Of a stretch of 64,000 nt of DNA, positions 27,684 through 30,772 are shown piece by piece. The notes beneath the pieces are model-generated. The model had not been told where the DNA came from and made no database searches. It saw nothing but the letters and a program-made list of their open reading frames with translations. Both the position numbers and the translations under genes were made by a program. Each line of letters opens with the position of its first letter. Within the stretch, counting starts at the first letter, position 1. The stretch comes from Mesorhizobium sp. GbtcB19 (GTDB taxonomy: Bacteria > Pseudomonadota > Alphaproteobacteria > Rhizobiales > Rhizobiaceae), in assembly GCF_019091085.1 (NCBI RefSeq), contig NZ_JAGXJY010000015.1, positions 1 to 64,000 of the forward strand. Direction: 5' to 3'.

Positions 27684-28781
<1,098 letters not shown>

Positions 28782-28927
28782 GATACATCACCCCTTGGTC
28801 GTCAATGAAGGCCGGACAATCCGTGATCCCTGCGGCTTTTGTACCTTTTTTGTTCTCATTTGGCAAGGGGCAACAAATATCTGAAAAACAATCAATATCT
28901 GGATTTGTTCTATTTTCGTTTCATCCG
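28782..28927. other. recA upstream region truncated by the IS insertion
   Basis: About 146 bases remain between recA and the left target duplication of the insertion sequence. They hold the SOS operator and presumably the recA promoter. No other feature is recognised. Confidence 0.6.
28850..28866 (-). promoter_or_regulatory. LexA/SOS operator of recA (TTG-N11-CAA)
   Basis: TTGTTCTCATTTGGCAA exactly fits TTG-N11-CAA, the operator defined by mutational work on Rhizobium etli recA; on the minus strand it also shows a GAAC half-site. It is centred about 77 bases upstream of the recA start codon, suitable for repression of its promoter. Confidence 0.75.
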
Positions 28928-28935
28928 GCTAGCCT
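28928..28935. repeat. Left 8-bp target-site duplication of the IS
   Basis: GCTAGCCT directly precedes the left inverted repeat and is exactly repeated at 30765-30772 after the right inverted repeat. Eight-base duplications are characteristic of the IS1595 family. Confidence 0.9.
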
Positions 28936-28959
28936 CGGATGTATCCCCTTGAAACATGT
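28936..28959. repeat. Left terminal inverted repeat of the IS
   Basis: The 24 bases begin CGGATGTATCCCC and end ACATGT. The first nine and last six positions are identical to the right end read on the opposite strand; mismatches are confined to positions 10 and 16-18. Confidence 0.92.
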
Positions 28960-28977
28960 AGCATGAAGTGCTACATA
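28949..28977 (+). promoter_or_regulatory. Transposase promoter with overlapping palindrome
   Basis: TTGAAA (28949-28954, inside the left inverted repeat) and TACATA (28972-28977) are 17 bases apart. The predicted start, 6-8 bases after the -10, falls at or next to the transposase ATG at 28985, so the mRNA may be leaderless; no ribosome-binding site is seen. The perfect inverted repeat TGTAGCA/TGCTACA (28957-28963, 28969-28975) lies in the spacer and could be an operator. Confidence 0.6.
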
Positions 28978-28984
28978 TTCTCGC

Positions 28985-29866
28985 ATGAGCACGACCCCTA
29001 AACCCGAAACCCTCAAATCGTTCCTCGAACGGTTCCCGACCGATGATTCGTGCCTCGATCACCTCATGGTGACGCGATATGGCAAGCGGCACGTTTGCGC
29101 CAAATGCGGCAAGGAAGCCAACTTCCATCGCGTGAAGTCGCGCCGTTGCTACGAATGCGATTTCTGCGGCTATCAGGTCTACCCGACCGCTGGCACGCCG
29201 TTTGAAGCCACGCGCACGTCCTTGCGCGATTGGTACACCGTCATGTTTCTATTCTGCACGTCCCGCAACGGCGTGTCGGCGAAGGAAGTGCAGCGCACGA
29301 TTGGCGTGACCTACAAGACCGCTTGGCGCATGTGCAACCTGATCCGTCAGTACATGGGTTACGTTGACGGCGACGCGCCGATTGGGGGCAAGGACGGCGG
29401 CATCGTTGAAGCCGACAAGATGTTTTACGGGGGCAAGGACAAGATGGGCGAGGACGATAAGACGGTCGTTTTCGGCGCCATCGAACGCGGGGGCGAAGTC
29501 ATCACCCGCGTCCTTCCAGGCCGTGGCCGCAAGCATGTGATGCCGGCGATCTTCGCTTGGGTAAAGCCCGGCTCCCGCATCGCCACGGATGAGGCTGGCG
29601 CGTTCCGTGAACTGTCAGAGCTTGGCTACCTGCATGGCACCGTGAACCATAGCCAAGGCGAGTATGTGAATGGTGCGGTCCACACGAACAACATCGAAGC
29701 TTTCTGGTCGCACGTTAAGCGCTCTATGCGCGGGACTTACGTGGCCGTTTCGGAGAAGTGGTTGCAGACCTACCTTTGGGAGTTCGAGTTCCGGCAGAAC
29801 CTTCGGAAGCATCCGCACTTGATGCTTGACCTTTTGCTGCAATCGTTCCCGCGCCCGGGACCGTGA
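28985..29866 (+). CDS. IS1595-family (ISXO2-like) transposase
   Basis: The 293-residue enzyme catalyses excision and insertion of the element. The N-terminal zinc ribbon is visible (CAKC about 38-41, CYECDFCGY about 55-62), followed by the ISXO2-like DDE domain: VEADKMFYGGK (first Asp), GSRIATDEAGAF (second Asp) and the family-specific HTNNIEAFWSHVKRSMRGTY, where Asn/Glu replaces the usual terminal Glu. Full length, no frameshift. A minus-strand small frame overlaps its last 143 bases. Confidence 0.93.
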   Translation: MSTTPKPETLKSFLERFPTDDSCLDHLMVTRYGKRHVCAKCGKEANFHRVKSRRCYECDFCGYQVYPTAGTPFEATRTSLRDWYTVMFLFCTSRNGVSAKEVQRTIGVTYKTAWRMCNLIRQYMGYVDGDAPIGGKDGGIVEADKMFYGGKDKMGEDDKTVVFGAIERGGEVITRVLPGRGRKHVMPAIFAWVKPGSRIATDEAGAFRELSELGYLHGTVNHSQGEYVNGAVHTNNIEAFWSHVKRSMRGTYVAVSEKWLQTYLWEFEFRQNLRKHPHLMLDLLLQSFPRPGP

Positions 29867-29930
29867 GCGGCGGCTTGGTAGCCATCGCCTTTAGGAGTTT
29901 GTCGAAGCGTTCCTTATTCTCAGCCGCCAC
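29724..29930 (-). CDS. Possible third passenger gene of the IS (small basic protein)
   Basis: A GTG at 29930 opens a 68-codon frame beginning MAAENKERFDKLLKAMATKP. The GTG lies 11 bases inside the end of the preceding passenger gene, suggesting coupled translation. The first 35 residues look like a short helix-forming protein; the rest runs antisense through the transposase 3' end and is low-complexity, Ser/Arg/Lys-rich. Because the second half is a shadow of the transposase, existence as a real protein is uncertain. Confidence 0.3.
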   Translation of the reverse strand: MAAENKERFDKLLKAMATKPPLTVPGAGTIAAKGQASSADASEGSAGTRTPKGRSATTSPKRPRKSRA

Positions 29931-30408
29931 TTTTCGAAGTCCTTTCGCGGATTGCGCGTGCCAATTCGTCAGGGCCGGATACGGTCGGCTTTCTTGATAT
30001 AAGCATTCCCATCAGGCATGCGACGACGAAACCAGCGAAAAAGATCGCGCATTCTGCCAAGTCCCAAAAACCGAAATTTGGCGACGATGTATAAAGCCCG
30101 TGCATGGCCTGTAGCGCTGGCGCTAATGCACCGCACGACGCGCCGATAGCTGCCCAAAGGACATCTTTCTCGAAGGGGCGAGAATTCTCAGATCGAAGCA
30201 TGGTTAGCTCCTCATCTGAAATGTCGTGCCGTAAGAGGGCGTCGGGGGCTGTCCTCCGGATTGGGATCGACATCCCGTTGCCGCCAGCGAGGGCGCTTTG
30301 GATCGGCTGCTCTGGAAAATCGCTAGAGCGGATGGCCGGGATCGCCGGAAGATTTTGGGTTTCGTTGCGGCCTCCGCCGCCAGCTCTACCCGTTTTTGGC
30401 TGTGCCAT
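29920..30408 (-). CDS. IS passenger gene: two-helix membrane protein of unknown function
   Basis: This frame of 162 codons starts 23 bases inside the end of the upstream passenger gene. The N-terminal 90 residues are polar; two hydrophobic stretches follow (about 83-105, DVLWAAIGASCGALAPALQAM, and about 114-138, ending AGFVVACLMGMLI), then a short basic tail. An alternative start at Met 46 (30273) exists. No family is recognised. It lies wholly inside the IS and is translated opposite to the transposase. Confidence 0.65.
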   Translation of the reverse strand: MAQPKTGRAGGGGRNETQNLPAIPAIRSSDFPEQPIQSALAGGNGMSIPIRRTAPDALLRHDISDEELTMLRSENSRPFEKDVLWAAIGASCGALAPALQAMHGLYTSSPNFGFWDLAECAIFFAGFVVACLMGMLISRKPTVSGPDELARAIRERTSKSGG

Positions 30409-30691
30409 CGGCGGCGGCTTTCGCAGCTTCGAAGTCGGAAAGTGCTTTCTCTATTTCCGCTTCGAATGGCTTCAAAAGATTGTTCAGCACCGCGCGGAGT
30501 TCGTACGCCTCCATGGGAGTCATAGAAAGCGCAATGCGCCAGTTTATTTTCCCGTTGAAGACCCGAGAGTCTCCAAAGACGAGTCGGAAATTGGTGGAAG
30601 TCGTGCTGACAACGAATCGGTTCGTGACAATGGTCGGAACCGCGTAAGTCGTCTCCATAAATTCGTCGTCTACCGGAATCCCGTGTTCCAT
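30386..30691 (-). CDS. IS passenger gene: 101-residue protein, DUF3467-like pattern
   Basis: First gene of the minus-strand passenger unit. The protein has a beta-rich middle (NRFVVSTTSTNFRLVFGDSR, NWRIALSMTPMEAYELRAVLNNLL) followed by an acidic helix. The order 'phenylalanine-rich strand, FRLxFG, then V.MSP..A..L...L' resembles DUF3467 proteins; this is a tentative similarity. GAGGGTG is well placed before the ATG, and a promoter lies in the adjacent IS end. No signal or membrane segment is present. Function is unknown. Confidence 0.7.
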   Translation of the reverse strand: MEHGIPVDDEFMETTYAVPTIVTNRFVVSTTSTNFRLVFGDSRVFNGKINWRIALSMTPMEAYELRAVLNNLLKPFEAEIEKALSDFEAAKAAADGTAKNG

Positions 30692-30721
30692 GCATCACCC
30701 TCTGCGCTATGGCAGGGGCCG

Positions 30722-30750
30722 ACATAGCACGATTCCGATTACATGTCCAA
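30722..30750 (-). promoter_or_regulatory. Passenger-gene promoter in the right IS end
   Basis: On the minus strand TTGGAC (30750-30745, inside the right inverted repeat) is followed after 17 bases by CTATGT (30727-30722), close to the alphaproteobacterial CTTGAC-N17-CTATAT consensus. The start would be near 30715, giving a leader of about 24 bases with a ribosome-binding site before the ATG at 30691. Confidence 0.6.
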
Positions 30751-30764
30751 AGGGTATACATCCG
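30741..30764. repeat. Right terminal inverted repeat of the IS
   Basis: It ends ...GGGTATACATCCG and is the inverted partner of 28936-28959 (20 of 24 identical). Confidence 0.92.
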
Positions 30765-30772
30765 GCTAGCCT
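30765..30772. repeat. Right 8-bp target-site duplication of the IS
   Basis: GCTAGCCT, identical to 28928-28935. The six bases before each copy are also identical (CATCCG); on the right these belong to the IS end, on the left to the host target. Confidence 0.9.

Follow-up and report, generated by a model that had tools for sequence, protein, structure and literature searches.

A cargo-carrying IS1595-family element beside recA in Mesorhizobium and the probable targeting of LexA operators by its relatives

A complete insertion sequence (IS) of the IS1595 family, 1829 bp in length, lies between recA and psuK at positions 28936-30764 of the 64,000-nucleotide stretch of Mesorhizobium sp. GbtcB19 DNA analysed here (the window). 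On comparison with its relatives, we consider it very probable that this is a cargo-carrying element that targets LexA operators (SOS boxes) when it transposes. The spacing and polarity with which such elements sit beside the operator, their choice of SOS genes and their repeated use of one position are established. The features concerned are as follows.

27684-28781, minus strand: recA (label from the sequence-only reading), downstream of the LexA box; open reading frame (ORF) with homologues beside 30/79 elements
28907-28921, plus strand: recA's LexA (SOS) box, GTTC-TATTTTC-GTTT, which departs from GTTCN7GTTC at one base and is proposed to determine the target
28922-28927, plus strand: 6-bp spacer CATCCG from box to duplication, on the box side and identical to the IS tip; 17/29 relatives have CACCAG there
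28928-28935, no strand: left target duplication GCTAGCCT, direct repeat, 8/8 match
28936-28960, plus strand: left terminal inverted repeat, 21/25 (84% over 25 nt)
28936-30764, plus strand: element, IS1595 family, 1829 bp, delimited by inverted ends plus duplication
28985-29866, plus strand: transposase, 293 aa, Zn ribbon and DDE domain; open frame with family matches
29920-30408, minus strand: cargo gene 2, 162 aa; ORF with homologues in element L038 and, weakly, at locus L166
30386-30691, minus strand: cargo gene 1, 101 aa, DUF3467-like; ORF whose homologues are cargo elsewhere
30740-30764, minus strand: right terminal inverted repeat, 21/25 (84% over 25 nt)
30765-30772, no strand: right target duplication GCTAGCCT, direct repeat, 8/8 match

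An earlier sequence-only reading of this DNA had taken the element for an intact member of the IS1595 family, and this is borne out by an open frame for a 293-aa transposase which matches the DDE_Tnp_IS1595 domain (PF12762, E-value 1.4e-35), the Zn ribbon (PF12760, 4.1e-08) and NF033547 (7.7e-52), all above the curated cut-offs. The inverted repeats, given there as 24 bases, are seen as 25-bp ends with 21/25 matches and are present in the relatives as well, and the claimed 8-bp duplications agree at 8/8 positions on the two sides. Duplications of 8 bp are a trait of the IS1595 family, and they are perfect (8/8) in 66 of the 79 delimited elements described below. Among acidic residues of catalytic type, D144 and D202 are invariant and E238 is retained in at least 90% of 32 aligned rows, and these three residues probably form the catalytic triad. 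The structure model of the transposase (pLDDT 88) matches the ISCth4 transposase and retroviral integrases, with no obvious extra domain in its modelled secondary structure, and a sequence search gave no relative of solved structure. The element may belong to the ISNwi1 subgroup of the family; a copy from Nitrobacter winogradskyi (L063) is one of its relatives. Siguier, Gagnevin and Chandler (2009, cited in PMC3129680) reportedly wrote of the IS1595 family and its 'transporter IS', of which passenger genes unrelated to transposition are the mark, and two cargo ORFs do lie within the ends of the window element. It is present as a single copy in its own genome, a 6.72-Mb draft, and a sigma-70 scan of positions 28700-29050 gave no promoter-like site.

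Relatives were collected by searching genome contigs with the transposase; out of 130 candidates the 80 best (51-97% identity) were kept, and element limits were set by the inverted ends plus the duplication, which gave 79 delimited elements of 1479-2979 bp, including that of the window. From the first locus set only L001, L010 and L012 entered, L002-L009, L011 and L013-L030 being left out as copies of other loci, poorly delimited or distant; with L031-L110 these make 83 loci, of which L085 offered no candidate ends; the other 82 went through the delimitation, and it succeeded for 72. Seven of the 23 loci L142-L164 were added (L142, L149, L150, L159, L160, L161 and L163), the rest being duplicates or undelimited. 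The ends of L150 were set by hand, and L170, L173, L174, L175 and L176, delimited or read later, stand outside the 79.

LexA sites of alpha-proteobacteria are of the forms GTTCN7GTTC and GAACN7GAAC, according to PMC3091678. The window box lies 14 bp from the element and 125 bp upstream of the recA start codon. When all 79 elements were examined, GTTCN7GTTC with at most one mismatch was found 13-16 bp from one end in 38 of them (class A; 26 exact), in a single polarity, with GTTC reading towards the element; 37 of these 38 boxes lie at 14-16 bp (13 bp, n=1; 14 bp, n=17; 15 bp, n=17; 16 bp, n=3). Other distances within 300 bp in the same flanks yield a mean of 0.195 matches per distance, and the empirical chance of such a box is about 1% per element. 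The binomial P for the excess is 1.9e-54, a value that ignores relatedness and depends on class limits (one mismatch; 13-16 bp; 11-14 bp for opposite polarity) chosen after looking at the flank data. Five further elements (class A2; L031, L038, L041, L142 and L150), all at recA, have the two-mismatch box GTTCN7GTCT at 14 bp, and boxes at 14 bp were read by eye in L170 and L173, outside the 79. The opposite polarity, at 12-13 bp, was seen in 11 of the 79 (six exact), from Brevundimonas, other Caulobacteraceae, several sphingomonad groups and unplaced Alphaproteobacteria; the one-mismatch calls among them (L069, L076, L079, L084 and L087) are less certain, and in L087 recA is on the opposite side from the counted box. 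In a transposase tree of 74 rows, all 14 rows of the window's clade have the box, four in the two-mismatch form, as does the distant pair L149 and L150. An element targeted to LexA operators should recur independently at a set distance from a box and in one polarity, and this was observed. Within the elements themselves, an exact-motif scan of the 79 gave no LexA box.

These figures bear directly on the view that this is an ordinary member of the IS1595 family which carries passengers and has no particular target. The structure and the family are indeed the usual ones for a transporter IS, however, unless the sampling has produced an artefact, a box in 38 of 79 elements against a chance of about 1% each makes that view barely credible. 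The sequence-only reading had found a hint of target choice in the flank CATCCG, which mirrors the IS end; target choice was right in spirit, but the feature was the wrong one, the aligned feature being the adjacent LexA box.

Among the genes on the box side, recA and lexA are established SOS genes. In 30 of the 79 elements recA lies within 0.5 kb and is transcribed away from the element, and the relatives that adjoin it come from many genera and in both orientations. On the box side of seven elements is lexA, by NCBIfam in L039, L047, L048, L051, L056 and L058 and by similarity in L161. DNA polymerase III alpha (dnaE) was assigned by NCBIfam in L061 and L083; in L061 its frame begins some 0.68 kb away from the element and a doubtful ORF intervenes. 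UvrD/PcrA-like helicases were recognised in L059 (below the curated cut-offs) and L149 (by similarity), ComM/YifB (comM) in L069 by NCBIfam, CoaBC (coaBC) in L070 and L073 by NCBIfam and in L062 by similarity, and MraZ (mraZ) in L067, below the cut-off. For dnaE, comM, mraZ and coaBC, the box seen here is the sole hint of LexA control. In L052, L066 and L104, which have boxes, the box-side ORFs match no NCBIfam family, and the same holds for the scanned ORF of L107. The elements L010 and L045 lie between lexA and recA, both genes being transcribed away from the element.

A landing site at a short distance upstream of genes is also known from TnGBS/ISLre2, whose insertions lie 15-17 bp ahead of the -35 boxes of sigma-A promoters (PMC3942029). 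General promoter targeting of this kind would account for the similar distance and the position upstream of genes; however, no -35-like hexamer was found at a fixed short distance from the elements, which disfavours it; what aligns between the elements is the box, and most of the genes assigned belong to the SOS regulon. We regard promoter targeting as quite improbable.

The box is absent in 25 of the 79 elements, 19 of which are of sphingomonad origin, and in L174, L175 and L176 outside the 79. L174, the first copy in genome G426, is 76-78% identical, has a broken transposase and lies in a different palindrome without a box. L055, 0.2 kb from recA, shows neither box nor duplication as delimited, while in L043 the box is doubtful, the duplication does not match and no SOS gene was found; the closest gene assigned on its box side is an amidohydrolase at 1.8 kb. 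Since some box-less sphingomonad copies are hosted by palindromes such as CCCTGAACTTGTTTCAGGG, where the duplication reads as 9 bp, several types of target may be in use within the family. The sphingomonad elements L088, L089, L095, L100 and L103 interrupt REP-like palindromes at their centre, with the sequence CCCTGAA-CTTGTTT-CAGGG or one close to it, and apparently have 9-bp duplications.

Repeated use of one position is seen within Mesorhizobium. In 146 genomes of the genus, the transposase (E-value 1e-60 or better) was found in 11, and in seven of these it is at recA. When the regions upstream of recA from 29 relatives were aligned with the window, 26 proved uninterrupted and three occupied at the same place. 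The element of G410, with 97% transposase identity, sits at the identical base as that of the window, in the opposite orientation and with different cargo, which argues for repeated insertions and against one old event; that of G400 (41-43% identity, ends set by hand) has the same position. Similarly, L070 and L073 share one coaBC position in opposite orientations. The empty site in close relatives had been expected to hold one GCTAGCCT, but none of the 29 aligned regions has it; the native sequence at the site is commonly ...CACCAGGGCTAGTGCGG, and hence the target site of the window differs locally from that of its relatives. Positions 28922-28935 differ from the relatives though the recA-side flank is 94-97% identical, and this local difference is perhaps a trace left by some earlier event. 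Some Mesorhizobium loci (L113, L114, L119, L124, L126 and L136) have an extra stretch, absent from the window, further downstream between recA and psuK.

In six elements (L032, L035, L036, L040, L045 and L080) a sequence like the element's own end abuts the duplication, with 13-21 of 22 bases matching. End-like flanks of at least 13/22 number seven in all: six are in class A, all six on the side away from the box, and the seventh is at the box-less L072 (13/22); shuffled flanks reach at least 14/22 in 0.03% of cases. Such flanks may well be remnants of older copies, as repeated insertion at one measured distance would be expected to leave.

It could be argued that there is no targeting at all, and that the elements are old recA-side insertions passed on by descent, or random insertions followed by selection. 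The recA neighbourhood is common to many hosts, which would suit descent, but the duplications differ, both orientations occur, the cargo differs, 26 of 29 close relatives have empty sites and the lexA, uvrD and dnaE loci show the same spacing; no case of orthologous position, orientation and cargo shared across genera was seen among the compared elements. Random insertion with selection would hardly fix the spacing to 2-3 bases. Both variants are, in our judgement, highly improbable.

According to the explanation that we favour, targeting of LexA operators, the transpososome would insert in either orientation on the upstream side of the operator, in a fixed order that runs from the operator through 6-8 bp and the 8 bp to be duplicated to the element. 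By landing upstream, the element leaves the operator and the stretch from there to the SOS gene undisturbed, and expression of that gene is probably spared. The element would gain an address expected in most alphaproteobacteria, and its benefit is presumably that of a safe harbour.

As to how the address is read, we lean towards LexA bound to the operator over naked DNA. In the window's own genome GTTCN7GTTC has 134 exact matches versus 135 for the reversed control motif, and most motif matches there are therefore due to chance; that the motif is at chance level and yet the element is found at a degenerate recA box favours sensing of LexA. More tentatively, though as a possibility of some weight, the elements may form a widespread class in which the transposase docks on LexA-occupied operators, reads the SOS state and inserts only where LexA is bound, and landing 14-16 bp away may couple the promoter of transposase or cargo to DNA damage. 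The transposase might instead read the SOS-box DNA by itself with LexA uninvolved, a version of the mechanism that overlaps with the targeting claim and that we think rather unlikely. It fits the fixed spacing and polarity, and the relatives with palindrome targets suggest that target reading by the transposase can evolve. However, the naked motif, at 134 occurrences, is not above control while the element is at a degenerate box, and the assignable nearby genes of the 43 class A/A2 elements are recA, lexA, uvrD-like and dnaE (L043 apart), although selection against intragenic insertion could explain part of this.

The right end of the window element lies about 0.9 kb beyond the transposase and extra space there is seen in 79/79 elements, which places the two ORFs of the window inside the element; from the end of the transposase match to the right end there are 556-2056 bp in each of the 79, and none ends right after the transposase. 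The two cargo frames overlap each other, both on the minus strand and inward from the right end. All 79 elements have at least one mechanical ORF beyond the transposase match, usually on the minus strand. The sequence-only reading had regarded the small proteins as element cargo, two or three in number, and had looked to other copies with the same minus-strand genes; the 101-aa and 162-aa ORFs do lie inside the ends, the pair recurs inside the Pseudohoeflea element L038, and the 26 empty recA sites are too short for the frames. Its doubtful third frame, a 68-aa ORF at 29724-29930, was not counted as a gene, being mostly antisense over the 3' end of the transposase; relatives have frames like it, which is the behaviour of a shadow frame.

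The L038 homologue of the 162-aa protein is 62% identical over residues 42-162; this protein had no match in Pfam or PHROG and no credible one in NCBIfam. The 101-aa protein, whose homologue is also in L038, matches DUF3467 with an E-value of 0.02, below the Pfam cut-off, and its family is represented among the cargo of other elements, by direct match in L038 and L049 and by clustering and alignment in L047, L059, L077 and L095. Its structure model (pLDDT 73, pTM 0.48) gave no significant fold match, the weak ones including some nucleic-acid binders (PURA, MRP1/2, Sub1) at E-values of 0.6 or worse. Among 297 genomes of the family, cargo gene 1 has matches in three, its own included, and at the other two no transposase match was found in the 3.2 kb examined at either. 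At one of them, G278 (L166), divergent homologues of both window cargo genes lie side by side at 1050-1743, from which it follows that the two genes can occur together outside elements of this kind.

Cargo differs between elements and is mostly without known family. In all, 90 cargo ORFs were scanned, picked mechanically at 95 aa or longer together with the window's two, under a longest-ORF rule that is liable to mistake the frame, as happened with the window's own element. Few of the 90 match Pfam or PADLOC models well: four are M78 peptidases, also matched by the capP/RmrA models, a few are PDC-S42, one each is Panacea, DUF7946 and DUF7947, and the others are single weak matches. The idea that the cargo consists mainly of known defence genes was set aside, the 90 ORFs having given only a few such matches. 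The elements L032, L034, L036 and L040 share a cargo pair, one L032 gene of which matches capP/RmrA (M78, ImmA/IrrE-like), and L149 and L150 carry a single large gene whose product by eye resembles a trypsin-like serine protease. The cargo is presumably carried for the benefit of host or element.

A literature search retrieved no report of IS1595 elements at SOS boxes, the founding IS1595 paper being outside its scope and earlier notice thus being possible. A simple transposon with one transposase gene would here have a base-level choice of target set by the operator of a regulator, and target selection through contact with a bound repressor becomes directly testable in harmless alphaproteobacteria of the laboratory. 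Such targeting would explain why the upstream regions of recA and lexA gather elements with changing cargo, it would let the elements serve to mark LexA operators naturally in genome sequences, and it could become a tool for inserting DNA at operators without gene disruption.

With the IS1595 'transporter IS' the window element and its relatives share the transposase domains, 8-bp duplications and passenger genes, and differ in their fixed placement at LexA operators. Tn7, which inserts at attTn7, has a safe-harbour address beside a conserved gene. The present elements resemble it in this, however, no separate targeting protein is apparent here, and many loci of one regulon are used instead of one site. 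The title of a 1999 report by Minakhina, cited in PMC7765201, states that insertion of Tn5053/Tn402 senses the occupied site of a DNA-binding protein. Insertion near the binding sites of such a protein is common to both cases, but the tniABQ module is absent here and there is one transposase of another family; the protein sensed there is a resolvase, and here it would be LexA. Tn5053/Tn402 are termed res-site hunters (PMC7765201). There is also a likeness in geometry with TnGBS/ISLre2/ISKra4 (PMC3942029), which keep a short, constant distance from an expression signal downstream of them and in which the signal may be found next to either end if the ends are symmetric, as here; they differ in belonging to another transposase superfamily and in that their signal is a -35 box, whereas here it is an SOS box.
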